From the IMG/VR virus record IMGVR_UViG_3300034073_002899, positions 1-28,293 of that record: a stretch of 28,293 nucleotides of DNA; one strand, written 5' to 3'. The stretch is from a virus. The number at the start of each line of letters is the position of its first letter. Within the stretch, counting starts at the first letter, position 1. The notes under the pieces are model-generated. The model had not been told where the DNA came from and did no database searches. It worked only from the letters and a program-made list of their open reading frames with translations. The position numbers were made by a program, and so were the translations under genes. Positions 3,112 to 28,293 of the stretch are shown one piece after another.

Positions 3112-4283
3112 GTCTGCTGGCCCGCCTGGAGCGGCGCGAGTTCGCCCCGCTGCAGAACACCGGGTTCTCGAACCTGACGAACTGGTCGGGTGAGACGGTG
3201 AACGAGACGACGGCGCTGCAGGTGTCGGCGGTGATGGCGTGCGTCGGTCTGATCGCCGACAGCGTGGCGTCGCTCCCGATCCGTGCGGTGCGCCGCATCG
3301 GGGACCGCAACGTGCCGCAGCCGACGCCGCGCCTGTTCGTCGCCCCGTCGACCACCGTCACCGCCTACGAACTGGTGCACCAGACCGTGTCGAGCCTGGC
3401 GTTGCACGGCAACGCCTACGTCTTCGTCGACCGGGCCGCGAACGGTGACCCGGTCGGGCTCACCCCGATCCACCCGAACAACGTCGAGGTCACCTCGTCC
3501 GGGTCGGCCCGGGAGCGGACCTACACCGTGTCGGGCACCCCGGTGCCGGCCGACAACATCTTGCACCTGCGCTGGTGGACACCGCCGCAGGCGCTGAAGG
3601 GCCTGTCGCCGATCGAGGAGCAGAAGACCACGATCGGGCTCGCCCTCGCGATGGAGCGGCACCTGTCGCAGTTCTACGCCGACGGTGGCACCCCGTCGTC
3701 GGTGCTGGAGACCGACGGCGACCTGACCGCCAACCAGGCGAAGGTGCTGCAGGAGACGTGGTTCACGCAGCACAACCGGCGGCGCCGCCCCGCGGTTCTC
3801 GTCGGCGGGATGCGCTGGAAGCCGGTGACCGCGTCGGCGGCCGACATGGAGTTGAACACGTCGCGCGAGTTGCAGATAGCGCAGATCGCCCGGATCTTCC
3901 GGGTGCCCGCCTACCTGATCGGCGCCAAGGGCGACTCGCAGACCTACAGCAACGCCGAGATGGCCGGCCAGCACTTCGTCACCTACAGCCTGCTGCCGTG
4001 GCTGCGCCGCATCGAGGAAGCGTTCACGACGCTCCTGGCGCCGCCCGAGATCGTCCGGTTCGACGTCGACGGGTTCCTGCGGGCCGACACGATCACCCGG
4101 CTGCGCGCCTACCAGATCGCCGTCTCCACCGGCATCAAGACCCCGAACGAGTGCCGGGCCGCTGAAGGGCTCGAACCGTACGCCGGCGGTGACGACTTCG
4201 TGATGGCGCTCCCGGGCGCCCCGATGGCCGGCCCCGGCACCGAGCCGGCACCGGTCGGTGTCGACGAGGAACCGCCGCTCTGA
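3108..4283 (+). CDS. phage portal protein, HK97-like (391 aa)
   Basis: Forms the dodecameric ring at the packaging vertex. Family signs: early segment TTALQVSAVMACVGLIADSV, the PTPRLFVAPSTTVTAYEL stretch followed by the LALHGNAYVF core, IHPNNVEV, the LHLRWW/LKGLSPIE segment, and late ISR-type sequence ELQIAQIARIFRVP with IGAKGDSQTYSN. Length is normal for the family. It starts at an ATG overlapping the preceding TGA and is followed with a one-base overlap by the protease gene, giving the usual terminase-portal-protease-capsid order. The C-terminus is acidic and Pro-rich. Confidence 0.95.
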   Translation: MSLLARLERREFAPLQNTGFSNLTNWSGETVNETTALQVSAVMACVGLIADSVASLPIRAVRRIGDRNVPQPTPRLFVAPSTTVTAYELVHQTVSSLALHGNAYVFVDRAANGDPVGLTPIHPNNVEVTSSGSARERTYTVSGTPVPADNILHLRWWTPPQALKGLSPIEEQKTTIGLALAMERHLSQFYADGGTPSSVLETDGDLTANQAKVLQETWFTQHNRRRRPAVLVGGMRWKPVTASAADMELNTSRELQIAQIARIFRVPAYLIGAKGDSQTYSNAEMAGQHFVTYSLLPWLRRIEEAFTTLLAPPEIVRFDVDGFLRADTITRLRAYQIAVSTGIKTPNECRAAEGLEPYAGGDDFVMALPGAPMAGPGTEPAPVGVDEEPPL

Positions 4284-20147: not shown

Positions 20148-20278
20148 GCGTCGTCCGCTGCCTGCTGTGCGGGGTCACGTTCCTGCGGCCCGAGACCTAC
20201 CTGCACCCCACCCACCGGTGCTGCAGGTCCACCACGCCGCCGGCGGCGGCCCAACCCATCGCCGGAGGTGCGCGATGA
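20144..20278 (+). CDS. tiny Cys/His protein, zinc-finger-like (44 aa)
   Basis: Both ends overlap neighbours by four bases. The N-terminus has RCLLCGVTF, then YLHPTHRCC, so C-x2-C and H-x3-H/C ligands could form a single zinc finger, followed by an Ala/Pro tail. I do not recognise a family; this size and pattern is common among phage early genes. Confidence 0.6.
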   Translation: MSVVRCLLCGVTFLRPETYLHPTHRCCRSTTPPAAAQPIAGGAR

Positions 20279-21939
20279 CCGACTTCACCCGTGACCGCTG
20301 GGGCCGCCCCATCATCATCCCGGCCGACGGCGGCAAACCGACCCCGTACACCCGGTTCTCGTCCCACGGGCAGGTGCTGGAGGACCGGTTCGGGCTGGAG
20401 AAGTGGAAGATCCGCACCGCCGTCAAAGGACTCACCGAACGCCCCGACCTGTTCGCCCAGGTCGCCGCCTGCCCCGTCGACGACAAGTCCCGCCTCGACA
20501 CCCTCGCCGGGTACGCCCTCGAAGCCGGCGGGTCAACCGTCGGGTCCGGTCTCGGCACCGCCCTCCACGAGTTCACCGAACGCGTCGACCTCGGCCAGAT
20601 CGACCTCGACACGATCCCGGACCCGTGGCGGGCCGACGTCGCCGCCTACCAGACGACCCTCACGGCGCACGGCCTCACCGTGATCGACGGCCTGATCGAG
20701 GTGCCGCTCGTCAACGACGAACTGCGGCTCGCCGGCACCGCCGACCGGTTCCTGCACCACCCCGACGGGCGCACCATCTGCGCCGACCTGAAGACCGGCA
20801 AGGCGATCGGCGACAACCCGCTCGGCTACATCGCCCAACTCGCCGGCTACGCCAACAGCGTCGTCTACGACATCGAAACCGGGGCCCGCACCCCGATCGA
20901 CAACATCGACACGACCGTCGGATACCTGATCCACCTGCCCGCCGGCCGCGCCGAGTGCACGATCTTCGAGGTCGACCTCGTCGCCGGGCTCGAAGCGGCC
21001 CGGCTCGCCGCCGAGGTCCGTGCCTGGCAGAAGCGGCGCGGTCTCGTTGTCAGTCTCTCGGCCCCGACGCACGGCACGCAGTCGGCCGAGACGGTGGCCG
21101 GTGCCGTCGAGCCTTCCCCCACGGCTCCGGCACCGGCCACCACCACCACGATCACGGTGAACATCGACGTGGCCGACGTCGACGCCGTCGTCGCCGCCGT
21201 CACCGAGGTGTTCCCCGGCACGGTGCTGCTCGCGTCCGACGAGCGGCGCACCTGGGCCGCCGGCCGGGTCCGGGCCATCGCCGCCCACTCCGACGACTCC
21301 GCTGGCGCCCTCGCCCGCTACTGGCCCGCCGGTGTCCCCACGTTCAAGGACCCGGACGCCGCCCACACCGACGACCACCTCGACCGGCTCGGCGTCGTGT
21401 TCACCCGTGTCGAGCGCGAGTTCGAGATCCCGTTCGGTGACAGCGATCCCGCCACCGTGCCAGCCGTCGACGAACCGGCACCGCCCGCCCCGGCACCGCT
21501 GCGGCCCACCCTGCCCGACGAAGGCCGCGACGCCACCAAGGCCGAGATCGCCGAGGTCCGTGCCCTCGTCGCCGCCCTCGACGACGACGCCGCCGACACG
21601 GTGCGCCGCATCGTGCTCGAAGCGAAAGCCGCCGACCGGCCGATCTCCGTCGCCGCGTACCCGTCGGAACGTCGCGTCGAGATCGCCCGGTTCCTCGTCG
21701 ACGCCGCCACGTTCACCGACCTCGACATCTGCCGGGCGATCGTCGCCCGGGTCCGACCCGAAGCCGCCGACCCGCACCAGCCGCTCGGCGCGGTGATCGG
21801 CAACTTCACCACCGGCGACGCCATCGAGGCCCGCCGACTGTCCGTAGCGCTCGACCAGGGACATCTCACGTTCCTGTACGGCGACGACGGCGCCCCGCAA
21901 CTGCTGGGCGACCTGCCTGCCTCATCCGAGGCGGCCTGA
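20275..21939 (+). CDS. RecB/Cas4-like PD-(D/E)XK nuclease with long C-terminal extension (554 aa)
   Basis: The N-terminal about 240 residues carry RecB-family motifs: H98 in GTALHEF, D157 in LAGTADRF, D171-L-K173 in DLKTGK, and Q188-x3-Y192 in QLAGYAN. Likely a DNA exonuclease in replication or recombination, acting with the SSB-like protein encoded next. Residues about 275-554 are an unusual Ala/Pro- and Asp-rich extension with several predicted helices (DEGRDATKAEIAEVRALVAAL, ERRVEIARFLVDA, AIVARVRPEAADP) that I do not recognise. ATG 20275 overlaps the upstream TGA. The gene ends before a short CCCAA-repeat gap. Confidence 0.88.
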   Translation: MTDFTRDRWGRPIIIPADGGKPTPYTRFSSHGQVLEDRFGLEKWKIRTAVKGLTERPDLFAQVAACPVDDKSRLDTLAGYALEAGGSTVGSGLGTALHEFTERVDLGQIDLDTIPDPWRADVAAYQTTLTAHGLTVIDGLIEVPLVNDELRLAGTADRFLHHPDGRTICADLKTGKAIGDNPLGYIAQLAGYANSVVYDIETGARTPIDNIDTTVGYLIHLPAGRAECTIFEVDLVAGLEAARLAAEVRAWQKRRGLVVSLSAPTHGTQSAETVAGAVEPSPTAPAPATTTTITVNIDVADVDAVVAAVTEVFPGTVLLASDERRTWAAGRVRAIAAHSDDSAGALARYWPAGVPTFKDPDAAHTDDHLDRLGVVFTRVEREFEIPFGDSDPATVPAVDEPAPPAPAPLRPTLPDEGRDATKAEIAEVRALVAALDDDAADTVRRIVLEAKAADRPISVAAYPSERRVEIARFLVDAATFTDLDICRAIVARVRPEAADPHQPLGAVIGNFTTGDAIEARRLSVALDQGHLTFLYGDDGAPQLLGDLPASSEAA

Positions 21940-22435: not shown

Positions 22436-22585
22436 ATGACAACCCACGACCTTCACGTCCTGCGCCGGGTGCTGCGCCACGTCGCCACGTCGGACCCTGC
22501 CCTGCAGGCCGAGGTGCTGCGCCTCGACGGCATCCTCGCCGCCCTGATCCGGTCACGGCAGACCACGGGGACGCCGGCGTCGTGA
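22436..22585 (+). CDS. small helical protein (49 aa)
   Basis: ATG 22436 follows a G-rich stretch (GGGGCGGGGG) that can serve as Shine-Dalgarno; the stop overlaps the WhiB GTG as GTGA. The product TTHDLHVLRRVLRHVATSDP with a second helix LQAEVLRLDGILAALIRSR looks like two short amphipathic helices. Family unknown. It is the first gene after the hairpin region. Confidence 0.65.
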   Translation: MTTHDLHVLRRVLRHVATSDPALQAEVLRLDGILAALIRSRQTTGTPAS

Positions 22586-23064
22586 CCGGTACCTGGCGTT
22601 CGAGGGCCGCCTGCATCGGCGTCCCCATCGACGTGTTCTTCCCGCCGGCCGGTGGCCGTCCCGCCACCATGTACGACGAGGCGCGCGCCATCTGCGCCGC
22701 CTGCCCCGTCGTCCACGAGTGCCTCGACTGGGTGCTCGGCTTCGCCGAACAGGAAGGGTTCGCCGGCGGCAAGACCGCCGCCGAACGGCGCCGCCTGCAA
22801 CTCGCCCGCGGCAACCGGGGCGACGTGTTCCGCTACCTGCGCGACGTCGACAGCCCCCACGGCACCCTCGCCGGCTACTACCTGCACACCCGTCACGGCG
22901 AGTCGCCGTGCCCGCTGTGCGTCGACGCCCGCTCCCGCTGGATGGAGTTCGACGTCGACCACCTGGCGGCCCGCCGGCGCCGTGACGCCGTTGCCCGCCA
23001 CCGGGAACGTGCCGCCAACACCGGCGACGACACGCCGGCGGTCGACGGGGGAGGTGCAGCGTGA
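22582..23064 (+). CDS. WhiB-like iron-sulfur regulator with C-terminal extension (160 aa)
   Basis: Actinobacterial Wbl family transcription factor binding a 4Fe-4S cluster. Cluster ligands C11, C38, C41 and C47 in the order C...CAAC-x5-C, then the turn GFAGGKTAAER (59-69) in place of the usual G[IV]WGG, and a basic region. The C-terminal extension (from about 90) carries HGTLAGYYLHTRHGESPCPLC, a small Cys-pair module also found in the 93-residue protein at 25298, then a basic helix. Phage WhiB proteins can bias host sigma-A transcription or exclude superinfection. GTG 22582 overlaps the previous stop. Confidence 0.92.
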   Translation: MTGTWRSRAACIGVPIDVFFPPAGGRPATMYDEARAICAACPVVHECLDWVLGFAEQEGFAGGKTAAERRRLQLARGNRGDVFRYLRDVDSPHGTLAGYYLHTRHGESPCPLCVDARSRWMEFDVDHLAARRRRDAVARHRERAANTGDDTPAVDGGGAA

Positions 23065-23393
23065 CCAACCCGCAGAAGGCCAAGGGGGACCGGGCCGAGC
23101 GCGAGATCGCTGCGCTCCTGGCCGATCTCCTCGGGTTCGGGGTGCGCCGCAAGTTGGGCGCCGGCCGGGCCGACGACACCGGCGACCTCGACGGGCTGCC
23201 CGACTGCACCGCCCAGGTGAAGAACTACGCCGACCTCGCCCGAGCGATCCGTGAAGGGCTGACAGGTCTCGAAACGCAACAGGTCAACGCCGGCACCACC
23301 CACGGCGTCCTGTTTGTCCGTCGTCCGGGTGGCCGCTGGATCGCGGTGCAGACCGTCGACCAGTGGGCGACCACCTACAGGGAGGCATTGTGA
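23061..23393 (+). CDS. Holliday-junction-resolvase-like PD-(D/E)XK nuclease (110 aa)
   Basis: Small nuclease of Hjc-like plan: KGDRAEREIAALL with E13 in the first helix, then GAGRADDTGDLDGLPDCTAQVKN, where D42 and Q52-V-K54 take the places of the D and (E/Q)-x-K active-site residues, followed by a helix and THGVLFVRRPGGRW. Such enzymes resolve branched DNA before packaging. The Gln in place of Glu is a tolerated variant in the superfamily. Overlaps both neighbours by four bases. Confidence 0.85.
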   Translation: MTNPQKAKGDRAEREIAALLADLLGFGVRRKLGAGRADDTGDLDGLPDCTAQVKNYADLARAIREGLTGLETQQVNAGTTHGVLFVRRPGGRWIAVQTVDQWATTYREAL

Positions 23394-23560
23394 CCACCAA
23401 GACCATCGCCGAAGGGCTCGCCGTCGGCTTCCTGATCTGGGCCGTCGGCAGCCTGCTGCTGATCGCCCTGAAACTGCGGATCTGGCACGACCTGCCGGCC
23501 CGCAAGTGCCGCAACCACACCTGCACGGTGTGCACCCGTCGCCACGGGAGCGGCCGGTGA
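23390..23560 (+). CDS. small membrane protein with cytoplasmic Cys/His tail (56 aa)
   Basis: One transmembrane segment (about residues 8-29, EGLAVGFLIWAVGSLLLIALKL), then a basic tail with CRNHTCTVCTRRH that could bind a metal. GTG 23390 overlaps the previous stop; its own stop overlaps the start of the secreted transglycosylase-like gene. The two may act together at the envelope. Confidence 0.75.
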   Translation: MTTKTIAEGLAVGFLIWAVGSLLLIALKLRIWHDLPARKCRNHTCTVCTRRHGSGR

Positions 23561-24132
23561 TCCGGCTCGCAGCGGCCACCGCCGCCCTGCTCGGCACCAT
23601 GTGGGCCACCGGTGGCGCCGAGGCCGACATCGAGTTCTCGCAGCCGATCCCGATCATCCCGATCACCGCCGCCACCATCCCGGTCACGACGATGACGGTG
23701 CGGCCGGCGGTGCCGGTGTCCACCACCGCCACCGTTGTGCACACCTCCGACACGTTGCCGCCCGTGACGACCCTGCCCGGCCACGACGGCGCCCTGTGCG
23801 GCGCCTGGTGGCCGACCGCCGTCGCCGCCGGCTGGCCCGTCGACGACCTCGGCCACCTCGACGCCGTCATGTGGGCCGAGTCCCGCTGCACCCCCGACAT
23901 CGTGTCCACCTCGGGTGACTGGGGGCTCGCACAGATCAACTGGACCGCCCACGGCGACCGGGTCGAAGCCCTCGGCTACACCCGGGACGACCTGCTGGTG
24001 CCGGCCGTGAACCTGATGGTGGCCCGCCAGGTGTTCGAGGCGGCCGAGGCGGCGTGGTGGTGCGGTTGGGAACCGTGGGCGGCGTCGGTCGACTGGCGCT
24101 CGTTCTGCACCGAGGACGCCGGCGATGAGTGA
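23557..24132 (+). CDS. secreted lytic-transglycosylase-like enzyme in the early operon (191 aa)
   Basis: Signal peptide (about 1-23, IRLAAATAALLGTMWATGGAEA), a Pro/Thr/Val-rich linker (24-75), and a compact lysozyme-like SLT domain (about 80-184): LDAVMWAESRC with probable catalytic E108, then SGDWGLAQIN, VPAVNLMVARQVFEAA, and WWCGWEPWA. Four cysteines (81, 111, 169, 184) could form two disulfides outside the cell. It probably cuts host peptidoglycan. Unlike the endolysin it has its own export signal and is encoded among early genes. GTG 23557 overlaps the upstream stop. Confidence 0.85.
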   Translation: MIRLAAATAALLGTMWATGGAEADIEFSQPIPIIPITAATIPVTTMTVRPAVPVSTTATVVHTSDTLPPVTTLPGHDGALCGAWWPTAVAAGWPVDDLGHLDAVMWAESRCTPDIVSTSGDWGLAQINWTAHGDRVEALGYTRDDLLVPAVNLMVARQVFEAAEAAWWCGWEPWAASVDWRSFCTEDAGDE

Positions 24133-24301
24133 CCGCACGACCCCGTGGGAGACGGACCGGGAACGTCGAGTGTTCGAGAACATGCACCGCTGGCGTCGGG
24201 TCGCCGAGATCGAGCACGCCCGCCACTGCACCGCCCACCACGACTGCGGCGCCGCCGTCGAGCGCCTCTACAACGAGCTGCGGGAGGCCGACCATGGCTG
24301 A
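24125..24301 (+). CDS. small orphan protein (58 aa), first of the 8-nt overlap series
   Basis: ATG 24125 overlaps the previous TGA by 8 bases (ATGAGTGA). Starts MSDRTTPWETDRERRVFENMHRW, then a Cys/His stretch EHARHCTAHHDCGAAVERLY, ending in HG. Could bind a metal. Unrecognised. Confidence 0.65.
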   Translation: MSDRTTPWETDRERRVFENMHRWRRVAEIEHARHCTAHHDCGAAVERLYNELREADHG

Positions 24302-24587
24302 CCGCACGAACGGAAGCGTCCGACCCGCCGGATCGGTAGCGCAGGACCCTGCCGCCGCCCACGAGCGGCTCCGCCTCTACATCGACAACCTGACCGACCG
24401 GCTCCGTCTGCAGGCCGAGTGGCACGCCCGCCATCCCGAGCACCCCGACCCGTACCGGCGTGACATCCCCGACGCCGTGTTCGCCGCCGACCCGTACCCG
24501 TGGACGAACGACACCCTGACGGCGCAACGGTTCGCCGACCTGGTGCTGCTCGTCGTGACCCTCTTCGAGGAGGCCCGCCATGGCTGA
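24294..24587 (+). CDS. small orphan protein (97 aa)
   Basis: ATG 24294 in an 8-base overlap (ATGGCTGA), with GGGAGG upstream. Begins MADRTNGSVRPAGSVAQDP, continues with an amphipathic helix AAAHERLRLYIDNLTDRLRLQAEWHARHP (abridged here by position: about residues 20-48), a Pro-rich middle with DPYPWTNDT, and a C-terminal helix FADLVLLVVTLFEEARHG. It may form dimers through its helices. No family recognised. Confidence 0.7.
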   Translation: MADRTNGSVRPAGSVAQDPAAAHERLRLYIDNLTDRLRLQAEWHARHPEHPDPYRRDIPDAVFAADPYPWTNDTLTAQRFADLVLLVVTLFEEARHG

Positions 24588-24927
24588 CGACATCGTGACC
24601 CGACTCCGGGCGGCGCATCCGCTCCAATACGGAGACCTGAACGGTCGGCTCGTCGAGAACGCTGAGTGCAATGACGACCCGCAGATACGGGACAGGGTGA
24701 ACCGATGCTGGAAATGCCAGCAGTGGTCGCCGTGTGACGTGCGCGAAGCCGCCGACGAGATCGAGCGGCTGCGCGGCGAGGTCGACCTGTTCCGGGAGAT
24801 CTGCTCGGAACTCGCCGAAGCCCTGCATGTCCAGGCATCCCTGCACCGAGTGCCGGTACGGACCCGGGCCTTCTACACCGTGCACGCCCTGCAGGCGCTC
24901 GCACGTTGGGAGGAGAACGATGGCTGA
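24580..24927 (+). CDS. small orphan protein with Cys pair and coiled coil (115 aa)
   Basis: ATG 24580 in an 8-base overlap (ATGGCTGA) with GAGGAGG upstream. The N-terminus MADDIVTRLRAA is a pattern common to phage proteins that end in an IERLR coiled coil; here it is followed by CWKCQQWSPC (three Cys, about 43-52), then DVREAADEIERLRGEVDLFREICSEL (coiled coil, about 53-78). Codons in 24600-24720 are a little less biased. Similar MADDIV...EIERLR proteins occur widely in phages without known function. Confidence 0.72.
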   Translation: MADDIVTRLRAAHPLQYGDLNGRLVENAECNDDPQIRDRVNRCWKCQQWSPCDVREAADEIERLRGEVDLFREICSELAEALHVQASLHRVPVRTRAFYTVHALQALARWEENDG

Positions 24928-25108
24928 CGACATCATCGACCAAGCCGAAGAAGGGATCGCCGCCCTCGACACCTGGATGACCGACGCCGTCGAGGCGATC
25001 GAAGCGATGCACGCCGAGACCCGCTTCAGGTGGAACGCCCTGCTTCACAGGGCGACCTGCACGGCCTTCTTCTGCCCCTACTGCGACACGAGGTCGTCCC
25101 GTGGCTGA
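24920..25108 (+). CDS. small orphan protein, zinc-finger-like end (62 aa)
   Basis: ATG 24920 in an 8-base overlap with AGGAG upstream. Starts MADDIIDQAEEGIAALDTWM, nearly the same five residues as its upstream neighbour, continues with a helix AVEAIEAMHAETRFRWNAL, and ends with HRATCTAFFCPYC, a compact His/Cys cluster. Unrecognised. Confidence 0.68.
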   Translation: MADDIIDQAEEGIAALDTWMTDAVEAIEAMHAETRFRWNALLHRATCTAFFCPYCDTRSSRG

Positions 25109-25301
25109 CCGGCCGGCACGCACCCGGGCCGACATCATCGCCGCCCTCTCACGAGTCACGGCCATCGACCCGTCCCTCATCGGCGACACCATCGCCATGC
25201 TCGAAGGCGACGAAGCAACGATCGTCGACCTCCGCACCCGGGTCCACCACCTGAACGAAGACCTCCTCGACGCCCGGTTCCGGCTCCGGCTCCGCTCGTG
25301 A
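25101..25301 (+). CDS. small orphan helical protein (66 aa)
   Basis: GTG 25101 in an 8-base overlap (GTGGCTGA), again giving MAD at the N-terminus. DIIAALSRVTAIDPSLIGDTIAMLEGDEATIVDLRTRV followed by a basic Arg/Leu end suggests two to three helices. Unknown role. Confidence 0.68.
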   Translation: MADRPARTRADIIAALSRVTAIDPSLIGDTIAMLEGDEATIVDLRTRVHHLNEDLLDARFRLRLRS

Positions 25302-25579
25302 CCTTCGACCACGCCGCCGAACTCGCCCGCGCCCGCCGCCTGTCGGCCGGCCTGCGCCACCAGTTACGTCACGGCCTCGACCTGCTCGACGACAACCACC
25401 CGCTCTGTGAGTGGGACGGGCCGCTGCTGCCGCTCGAACCGGTGGACCTGCCCCCGATCCGGCACGGCACCAACAACGGCTACCAGACCCACCTGCGACG
25501 CGGCATCCCGCCCTGCCCGGCGTGCCGCACCGCCCACCGACACCAACGACGGCAGGAAAGGACCAGCAGCGCAGCATGA
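25298..25579 (+). CDS. small protein with HGT-x2-GY Cys-pair module (93 aa)
   Basis: GTG 25298 overlaps the previous stop and its TGA overlaps the replication gene ATG. The N-terminal half is helical (AAELARARRLSAGLRHQL). Residues 56-76 form HGTNNGYQTHLRRGIPPCPAC, followed by RTAHRHQRR, a small basic Cys-pair module frequent in actinophage proteins and similar to the extension of the WhiB protein. A DNA-binding role is plausible. Confidence 0.75.
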   Translation: MTFDHAAELARARRLSAGLRHQLRHGLDLLDDNHPLCEWDGPLLPLEPVDLPPIRHGTNNGYQTHLRRGIPPCPACRTAHRHQRRQERTSSAA

Positions 25580-28293
25580 CCGCCCAGGCAGCAACCCACG
25601 ACGGCGACAACACCAACCCCCACCAGCACGCCCTGATGCTCGCCGACGCCGGCTACCGGGTGCTCCCGATCCGCCCCGGCGAAAAACGGCCCCCCATGAC
25701 CGCCTGGCAAACCGCCGCCACCACCGACACCACCACCATCAACTCCTGGTGGACCGGCCTCTACCGGGACCACGGCATCGGCATCGCCACCGGCGCCCTC
25801 CCCGACGGCCGCCACCTGTTCGTCGTCGACATCGACGAACACGACCCCACTGCGAGCGGCACCGACACCTGGCACGAACTCCTCGCCCTCTACGGCACCG
25901 ACGAACCCGACACCGTCACCACCCTCACCCCGACCGGCGGACGACACCTCTACTTCACCGCGCCCCACCCCATCCCGAACGACGCCGGCCGCCGCCTCGG
26001 CCCCGGCCTCGACGTGCGCGGCACCGGCGGCCAAGTCCTCGCACCCCCCACGATCCACCCGAACGGCGGCCGATACGAATGGGAGATCGACCACGCCCCC
26101 TGGGTCGTCGAACCCGCCGCCGCACCCGGATGGCTCCTCCACCTCGTCACCCCCACCCAGACGACGCCGACACCGGTGCCGCCGGCGGGCTCGAGGACGG
26201 CGTCCGTGTGGGACGTCATCGCCGACGACGGACCCGCCGCCCGCTACAACGACACCACCACCTGGCACGACCTGCTCACCGGCGACGGCTGGACCCTCAC
26301 CCACATCGACCGCAGCGGCGAACAACACTGGACCCGCCCCGGCAAAGACGGCCGCGACGGCACCTCCGCCACCGTCGGCTGGAACGGCCGCGACATCCTC
26401 CGAGTGTTCACCACCTCGATCCCGTGGCTCCCCGAAGGCGCCTACTCCCGGTTCGGGTACTACGCCTGCCGGCACCACAACGGCAACCGATCCGACGCCG
26501 CCCGCACCCTCCGCAACGCCACCACCAGCACCAGCCCGGAACCTGTCGTCGTGCACCAGGCCGCCGACCCCGGCGAACCCTGGCCCGACCCGATCCCGCT
26601 CCACGACCACACCCGGGCCCCGGCGTTCCCCATGCACACCCTGCCGCGATGGATCGCCGACCACGCCACCGCCGTCGCCAACGACCTCCAAGTCGCCCCC
26701 GACCTGCCCGCCACCCTCGCCCTCGGCGCCCTCTCCGTCGCCACCCTCGGCCGCACCCACATCCGCTACCCCCGCCAGAACTGGCGGCAACCCTGCAACC
26801 TGTACGCCGCCGTCGCTCTCCCACCCTCCGCCGGCAAGTCACCCGCCAAGAACGCCATGTTCGGGCCCCTCGAAGAACTCGAAGTGACCCGGATGCAACA
26901 GGCCGCCGCCGCCCGCATCCGCGCCGAATCCCGGCGCAGCGTCCTCGACAAACGGAAACGGAACCTCGAAGACAAAGCGGCGAAAGGCGGCGACGACGGC
27001 CGGGCCGCCGAGTTCGAGCTGCTCGAACTCGTCGAAGAGATCGCCAACCTCGACCGGGTCCCCACCGGCAGGCTCCTCGCCGACGACGCCACCACCGAAG
27101 CCCTCGGCGTCGCCCTCGCCGACGCCGGCGGCCACATCGCCGTCGTCTCCGCCGAAGGCGGCATCTTCGACCGGATCGCCGGCCTCTACAGCGACGGGGC
27201 GTCCAACTTCGACCTGTACCTCGAAGCCTGGGGCGGCGGCCGATACGTCGTCGACCGCATCAAACGAGACCCGATCTCCATCCCGTCCGCCAACCTCGTC
27301 GTCATCACCACCGTCCAGCCCTCCGTGCTCGACGAGGTCGGCGCCAAACGACAGTTCGCCGGCCGTGGGCTCACCGCCCGCTTCCTGCTCTGCATGCCCG
27401 ACTCGAACGTCGGCACCCGGGACCGGCTGCGAGAATCATCCGGCGACGAGGTGCAGCGCCGCACCTACGCCGCACACCTCGTCGACCTCGCCGACCGGGT
27501 CCACACCGCCCCGATCGAACTGACCGTCACCGGCACCGCGTCCGACCGGTTCGCCCGCTGGGACCAGTCGCTCGAACACCGGCTCGCACCCGGCGACGAC
27601 CTCGAACACCTCGCCGAATGGGTCGGGAAACTCCGAGCCAACACCCTACGGGTCGCCGCCCTCCTCCACCTCGCCCACCAACACCCCGGCACCGACATCG
27701 ACGAGCACACCGTCGGCCAGGCGATCGAGATCGGCGACTATTACCTCGCCCACGCCCAAGCGATCGCCGACCGGTGGGGCACCGACGAACGGGTCGCCAA
27801 GGCCCGCAAACTCGCCGACTGGGTCACCCGCAACGGGCTCACCGAGTTCACCGCCCGCGACATCCTCCGCAACATGCGGCGCACGTTCGCCGACCTCGAC
27901 GCCCTCCGGCCCGCCGTCGAACTCCTCGTCGAACGAGGCTGGATCAGACCCCAGTTCGACGGTCCGTTCGTCGCCCACACCTCCCGAGGGAAACCGTCGC
28001 CCGGGTTCCTGGTGCACCCCGACGCCGGCCGACACCTCGAACCGAGCGTGTCGCGCGTGTCGCCGGCCGATCCGAGCGTGTCGCCGCCCGGGAGCGTGTC
28101 GCGCGTGTCGCCGCCCGGGAGCGTGTCGCGCGTGTCGCCGGCCGAATCGAGCGTGTCGCGCGTGTCGTCGCCCGAAACGCCTGTGGATAACCCGAGCGTG
28201 TCGCGCGTGTCGCGCGTGTCGCGTAGAGGGGGGATTGAACCCCCCACCCCCTCTACCTCTACCTCTACCCCTCCACCCCCGAACCCCGTCGAC
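25576..28293 (+). CDS. bifunctional primase-polymerase / DUF3987 replication protein, runs off the right edge (906 codons seen)
   Basis: Central replication enzyme. N-terminal prim-pol (AEP) domain at about 15-195: GYRVLPIRPGEKRPP, catalytic D85-x-D87 in VVDIDEHD, TPTGGRHLYF, and DVRGTGGQVLAPPTIHPNG. A middle segment follows (about 200-335). Then the DUF3987 ATPase-like domain (about 345-780) with Walker-A-like PPSAGKS (K421), ALADAGGHIAVVSAEGG, and ITTVQPSVL plus KRQFAGRGLTARF. The tail (824 onward) is low-complexity SVSRVSP repeats and Pro/Thr, with no stop before the edge. ATG 25576 overlaps the upstream TGA. The likely end is 1-120 across the junction. Confidence 0.93.
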   Translation, partial: MTAQAATHDGDNTNPHQHALMLADAGYRVLPIRPGEKRPPMTAWQTAATTDTTTINSWWTGLYRDHGIGIATGALPDGRHLFVVDIDEHDPTASGTDTWHELLALYGTDEPDTVTTLTPTGGRHLYFTAPHPIPNDAGRRLGPGLDVRGTGGQVLAPPTIHPNGGRYEWEIDHAPWVVEPAAAPGWLLHLVTPTQTTPTPVPPAGSRTASVWDVIADDGPAARYNDTTTWHDLLTGDGWTLTHIDRSGEQHWTRPGKDGRDGTSATVGWNGRDILRVFTTSIPWLPEGAYSRFGYYACRHHNGNRSDAARTLRNATTSTSPEPVVVHQAADPGEPWPDPIPLHDHTRAPAFPMHTLPRWIADHATAVANDLQVAPDLPATLALGALSVATLGRTHIRYPRQNWRQPCNLYAAVALPPSAGKSPAKNAMFGPLEELEVTRMQQAAAARIRAESRRSVLDKRKRNLEDKAAKGGDDGRAAEFELLELVEEIANLDRVPTGRLLADDATTEALGVALADAGGHIAVVSAEGGIFDRIAGLYSDGASNFDLYLEAWGGGRYVVDRIKRDPISIPSANLVVITTVQPSVLDEVGAKRQFAGRGLTARFLLCMPDSNVGTRDRLRESSGDEVQRRTYAAHLVDLADRVHTAPIELTVTGTASDRFARWDQSLEHRLAPGDDLEHLAEWVGKLRANTLRVAALLHLAHQHPGTDIDEHTVGQAIEIGDYYLAHAQAIADRWGTDERVAKARKLADWVTRNGLTEFTARDILRNMRRTFADLDALRPAVELLVERGWIRPQFDGPFVAHTSRGKPSPGFLVHPDAGRHLEPSVSRVSPADPSVSPPGSVSRVSPPGSVSRVSPAESSVSRVSSPETPVDNPSVSRVSRVSRRGGIEPPTPSTSTSTPPPPNPVD
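28046..28221 (+). repeat. GCGTGTCG iteron-like array (12 direct copies)
   Basis: The octamer GCGTGTCG occurs at 28046, 28055, 28076, 28094, 28103, 28121, 28130, 28151, 28160, 28196, 28205 and 28214, mostly in pairs 9 bases apart with a 27-30 base pitch. The spacer variants CCGGCCGA and CCGCCCGG alternate. It is in frame, coding SVSRVS units. An inverted copy (CGACACGC) lies at 48-55, just across the proposed junction. Confidence 0.92.
28182..28190 (-). promoter_or_regulatory. perfect DnaA box inside the iteron array
   Basis: The + strand reads TGTGGATAA, that is TTATCCACA on the minus strand, the consensus DnaA box. It occupies the one gap in the repeat array (between copies at 28160 and 28196) and is unusually AT-rich for this genome. 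It codes VDN in frame. Confidence 0.65.
28223..28256. other. strong hairpin next to the iteron array
   Basis: GTAGAGGGGG (28223-28232) pairs with CCCCCTCTAC (28247-28256); alternatively GGGGGG (28228-28233) pairs with CCCCCC (28240-28245) around ATTGAA. It is followed by a TCTACC-repeated pyrimidine tract. In coding frame. Confidence 0.75.

Follow-up and report, generated by a model that had tools for sequence, protein, structure and literature searches.

Five small genes of a probable actinophage interlocked by 8-nt overlaps, and a longer boundary box at which related genes appear to be shuffled

Why should five consecutive small genes of one phage each begin eight nucleotides before the preceding gene ends, in a region where the neighboring joints measure four? 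The genes in question lie in a virus record of 28,293 bp with a GC content of 70%, called here the window. It encodes a serine integrase, a repressor, Cro-like genes and WhiB-type genes, and on the strength of these and its GC content is likely to derive from a temperate, high-GC phage with an actinobacterial host. The five genes (hereafter the train) are located in the phage early region, downstream of genes for a WhiB, a RusA/PDDEXK-like protein, a small probable membrane protein and an SLT lysozyme-like protein. The relevant features are as follows.

20275..21939, + strand: phage exonuclease (PHROG 466), a candidate recombination enzyme
23557-24132: SLT lysozyme-like gene, the upstream partner of the first joint, ending in ...DE
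24125..24301, + strand: train gene 1, 58 aa, sharing joint ATGAGTGA with the SLT-domain gene upstream, protein end ...READHG-stop
24294..24587, + strand: train gene 2, 97 aa, beginning at joint ATGGCTGA, protein end ...EEARHG-stop
24567..24612, + strand: extended form of the boundary box where genes 2 and 3 meet, GAGGAGGCCCGCC-ATGGCTGA-CGACATCGTGACCCGACTCC (SD, start, stop, N-box)
24580..24927, + strand: train gene 3, 115 aa, member of the shuffled DDIVTRLR/AADEIERLR family
24748..24774, + strand: internal A-box of gene 3 (AADEIERLR), the second seam of the family
24920..25108, + strand: train gene 4, 62 aa, first 15 nt identical to gene 3 (ATGGCTGACGACATC) and unrelated beyond
25101..25301, + strand: train gene 5, 66 aa, joint GTGGCTGA
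25298..25579, + strand: WhiB-like C-terminal half gene (PHROG 12112), 4-nt joint, downstream of the train
25576..28293, + strand: Prim-Pol/DUF3987 primase-helicase, 4-nt joint, the anchor for finding relatives

Both the sequence and an independent codon-based gene call place five consecutive 8-nt start/stop overlaps at 24125, 24294, 24580, 24920 and 25101, the octamer being ATGAGTGA at the first joint, ATGGCTGA at the next three and GTGGCTGA at the last. Overlap lengths across 22582-25576 read 4-4-4-4-8-8-8-8-8-4-4 nt, with a return to 4-nt joints 3' of the train (GTGA at 25298, ATGA at 25576). The four joints ahead of it (22582-23557) are a second single-type run, all 4-nt GTGA with the starts GTGACC, GTGACC, GTGACC and GTGATC. 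All five train ORFs have coding-like codon usage, with scores of 17.6-31.8 in the independent call. The original prediction had put five 8-nt overlaps at these positions and regarded all five genes as orphans, and both statements were borne out, the second within Pfam, PHROG, NCBIfam and PADLOC; its remark that the upstream proteins end in HG, DG or RG is correct for four genes and fails for the first upstream gene. These endings and the shared MAD/MSD starts exist because of the octamer itself, since xATGGCTGA is read as xAT-GGC-TGA by the upstream gene and as ATG-GCT-GAN by the downstream one.

It is unlikely that this run of five arose by chance. Seven of the 42 same-strand joints in the window are 8-nt joints, and a run of at least five of them appeared in 0.08% of permutations over all overlaps (P 0.0008), or in 1.2% when only tight overlaps were permuted (P 0.012). 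Among 3,114 joints of related loci the 8-nt share is 7.7%, and runs of at least five occur in three loci including the window, against 0.18 expected by within-locus permutation.

Train genes 1-5 gave no Pfam, PHROG, NCBIfam or PADLOC family at a meaningful E-value, and no phage-database match was found for the train region as DNA or for genes 2 and 3 as proteins, the sole two train genes so queried. Searches of PADLOC, Pfam and PHROG matched none of them to anti-defence or defence proteins, and to assign them anti-defence or host-takeover roles would be a guess. The collections searched held no close relative of the window, and the genome contigs no relative by primase; sister phages were found through primase and terminase searches, and their genes come from a simple codon-model caller rather than from curated annotation. 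The body of gene 1 has homologs (38-49% identity) in three of these phages (G004, G007 and G008), outside 8-nt trains. Gene 2 has a homolog at L178:6687-6935 (29% identity, E 9e-5), situated at an 8-nt joint following a DDIVTRLR gene, while gene 5 has none among the fetched loci.

Gene 3 belongs to a family that we define here by two boxes, M[AST]DDIVTRLR at the N-terminus and AADEIERLR in the interior. In gene 3 the former is encoded by [AG]TGNNTGAYGACATYGTGACCCGACT DNA and the latter occupies residues 57-65, followed by a variable helical tail (helix 52-88). The family is absent from Pfam and PHROGs and its motif strings found no match in a literature search; it is a family of phage proteins, hitherto undescribed and varying combinatorially, that goes unrecognised in current family libraries. 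An AF2 model of gene 3 (pLDDT 75) has a predicted short N-helix, variable loop and long helical hairpin, with no significant structural match in PDB or BFVD. When the starts of the window were scored with a PWM of the boundary, the gene 3 start (24580) scored 50.0, the best in the window, and the gene 4 start (24920) came second with a partial match at 18.5; genes 1, 2 and 5 have neither the extended box nor the N-terminal motif. WhiB is present in half of 50 family contigs, which indicates actinobacterial hosts at least for those contigs. Two matches to the DNA box in genome contigs were judged to be chance, one in a 358-aa protein with a fortuitous DDIVTRLR N-terminus beside apparent riboflavin-biosynthesis genes and one inside a flagellin-like gene. 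A second, apparently similar small-gene family, [MV]ADLSPAAQAVLDAF...IAAALRAAADQV, is found at 8-nt joints in L280, L286, L297, L316, L354, L281 and other loci.

Members of the gene-3 family are strongly associated with the 8-nt joint: 61 of 136 family genes (45%) overlap the preceding gene by 8 nt, compared with 146 of 2,032 other genes in the same loci (7%), an excess that persists among tight overlaps (Fisher P 2e-16). The start box is also conserved at synonymous sites, with GTG used in 95% of cases against 28% genome-wide, CGA in 76% against 13% and CTA in 56% against 9%. This codon conservation holds too in members recruited by peptide instead of by DNA pattern, and is weaker in loci with a GC content of at least 60%, the class to which the window itself belongs.

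We could split 131 family members into modules, and pairwise comparison gave 162 pairs in which the tail is shared and the middle differs, 49 in which the middle is shared and the tail differs and 9 sharing both, pair counts that are not equivalent to independent events. Where the middle is shared, upstream DNA is unrelated in 46 of 48 pairs and the break falls at the start codon, around which identity drops from 0.97 to about 0.3; where the tail is shared, the downstream gene differs in 43 of 53 pairs and the break falls at the stop octamer. Identity falls at the start codon, the A-box and the stop, and by these alignments the gene-3 family is evidently mosaic at three seams: the start box, the internal AADEIERLR box and the stop octamer. 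The middle module of gene 3 itself occurs also in L135. On the minus strand of L205, two family genes (2121-2312 and 3236-3439) have an identical tail, RVAGDALHAAVRNHDLTEAHLRAWEEARRG, and different middles. In the family consensus, the start box GATGACATTGTGACCCGACTACGG resembles the internal box GATGAGATTGAACGGCTACGG (24580-24609 and 24748-24774 in the window), and the two seams may recombine with one another.

Exchange of whole genes can be followed in two sister phages. G001, whose primase is the closest to that of the window, also contains four 8-nt joints in succession, each of the form [AG]TGGCTGA; the second, L178 (contig IMGVR_UViG_3300035670_001160), closely related to G001, has nine in a row and a 490-aa exonuclease 93% identical to that of G001. 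In both, an exonuclease gene related to the PHROG 466 gene of the window borders the train, and between the same flanking genes there are four train genes in G001 and seven in L178. The left flanks are 85% identical in DNA up to the last base of [AG]TGGCTGA (5376/5401), and on the right 90% identity restarts at the second base of [AG]TGGCTGAC (6876/6929), the octamer of a 144-aa gene. Within G001, an exact repeat of 37 nt covers two SD-start-octamer boxes, and an exact direct repeat of 26 nt brackets one whole 228-aa gene. In these sister phages repeats at gene joints coincide with the borders of gain and loss. The bracketed gene (L083:8130-8816, minus strand) matches PHROG 21138 (E 2e-35) and has a weak match to a PHROG of Holliday junction resolvases (E 1e-7); its product is weakly endonuclease/resolvase-like.

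We consider it probable that the five genes form a chain of accessory genes, linked by an interlocking connector and recombining at boxes, within the early region of a temperate actinophage. Each gene closes with codons (...CAT/CGT GGC TGA) that hold the start codon of any next gene, and opens with codons ([AG]TG GCT GA) that hold the stop codon of any preceding one; as the SD sits within the end of the gene before, any pair of such genes could be joined and their translation still be coupled. Homologous or annealase recombination between repeated boxes would do the joining, perhaps aided by the phage exonuclease nearby, and the products may be dispensable early proteins that vary under host selection. 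We infer translational coupling and an accessory function for the train genes, and exchange within the train of the window from its sister phages. In those relatives, comparison shows insertion, loss or exchange of whole genes, both borders falling on the connector.

The octamer would not suffice for this. According to the original prediction, the repeated boundary could be a short homology permitting genes to be swapped, in which case relatives should gain or lose entire genes precisely at ATGGCTGA. The gain and loss is found in G001 and L178, where both borders fall on the octamer, and whole-gene exchange at joints is seen there and in the gene-3 family; the idea that the octamer alone supplies the homology does not stand, as the octamer recurs between many unrelated high-GC phage genes. 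The relevant homology is that of the longer box in which it sits. In the window this recombining box is confined to the gene 2/3 joint and, in part, the 3/4 joint, the remaining joints having the octamer alone, and since the octamer links so many unrelated genes, constraint or convergence suffices for genes 1, 2 and 5.

That concession can be extended to the whole train, and the resulting alternative, which we rate as rather unlikely and yet the most serious, is one of ordinary genome compression and convergence: the octamer would recur without homology, and mosaic borders would lie at gene edges since others break genes. With normal start codons, no overlap shorter than 8 nt can be made in this reading phase; an alanine codon (GCT) in second position and aspartate or glutamate in third also suit high-GC phages. 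The genetic code constrains overlap lengths (PMC3887535). A scan with GAGGCCNRCC[AG]TGGCTGAC, meant to find family trains, became the main control on the significance of the octamer, for it returned 106 gene starts of which 94 are 8-nt joints, mostly of unrelated genes. Among the 8-nt overlaps of high-GC loci, [AG]TGGCTGA is the most frequent form (26 of 85). Taken with its SD, the octamer must accordingly be regarded as a convergent optimum too, and the lack of an extended box in genes 1, 2 and 5 fits this explanation, as does the fact that selection against broken genes likewise sets breakpoints at gene edges. Convergence does not, however, readily account for runs clustered above permutation, for exact repeats of 26 and 37 nt, for a box conserved at synonymous sites or for seam breaks that coincide with that box. 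The density of mosaic breakpoints peaks at 8-nt starts (6.7/kb), in favor of the connector, but is also high at 1-nt starts (5.2), which speaks against it; the values are 2.6 at 4-nt starts and 1.6 at random.

It is improbable, in our estimation, that the start box is simply a regulatory element, acting in translation or protein binding and conserved for reasons unconnected with recombination. The box does take in the SD and the start, its synonymous sites are conserved, and Cluster K mycobacteriophages offer a precedent (PMC3203893). Against this, conservation reaches about 24 nt into the coding region, a weaker form of the codon bias is seen again at the internal AADEIERLR box, distant from every start, and the start box has no stable predicted single-strand fold. 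Still more doubtful is tandem duplication, by which the genes would be old paralogs with starts kept alike and bodies diverged: arrays hold up to six DDIVTRLR genes and genes 3 and 4 have 15 nt in common at their starts, but the start boxes are alike at synonymous sites above unrelated bodies, past the start no resemblance to gene 3 is seen in genes 1, 2 and 5, and the same middles and tails are differently combined between phages, reciprocal swaps that weaken a history of duplication. An integron-like cassette array with attC-type hairpins was rejected, three boxes folding no better than shuffles (z 0.3-0.8).

A bolder extension of the connector reading is that environmental actinophages possess a box-delimited assembly maintained by recombination (start box, A-box and stop octamer), continuously building new small proteins and gene orders from shared modules; this would be an integron-like combinatorial reservoir without a dedicated integrase or attC, and we offer it as speculation that is unlikely to hold in full. 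Whether phage mosaicism stems from homology at the borders or from joining at random that selection then filters has long been debated, and to our knowledge most mosaic borders lack shared sequence. The present natural set of over 130 genes, in which the box keeps its synonymous sites at just the points where genes and gene parts are exchanged, allows a direct comparison of the two models.

Known systems share parts of this arrangement. The Start Associated Sequences of Cluster K mycobacteriophages are short DNA repeats at the starts of many unrelated small non-structural genes (PMC3203893), and so resemble the repeated short DNA described here, but they lie upstream of the start only, whereas our repeat covers the SD, the start, the previous stop and about 8 codons. 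Read for such elements, the train starts lack the 13-bp GGGATAGGAGCCC upstream and have an SD of GGAGG type or weaker. Gene 68 of Island3/Brujita was inserted by recombination between repeats of about 50 bp at a gene end, with short conserved boundary sequences (PMC3029335), the same kind of event as suggested by the 26-nt repeat bracketing one gene in G001; that is a single mycobacteriophage case, while the box here is found in more than 130 genes on many contigs and has a second, intragenic seam. Another likeness is the lambda nin region, known as 'a chain of interlinked genes' (Kroger & Hobom 1982, cited through PMC8022706), with its packed, small, mostly nonessential early genes, start/stop overlaps and content that varies between relatives. 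The train likewise is a series of small early genes in which the stop codon of one overlaps the start codon of the next. Lambdoid joints, however, are 4-nt ATGA and those of the train are 8-nt and also fix the protein ends, and therefore the train works like a nin chain without being a member of that class; it differs further in a DNA box conserved past the joint, in intragenic seams and in its phages and hosts. In the related phages the 8-nt joint behaves like a natural connector for the shuffling of accessory genes.
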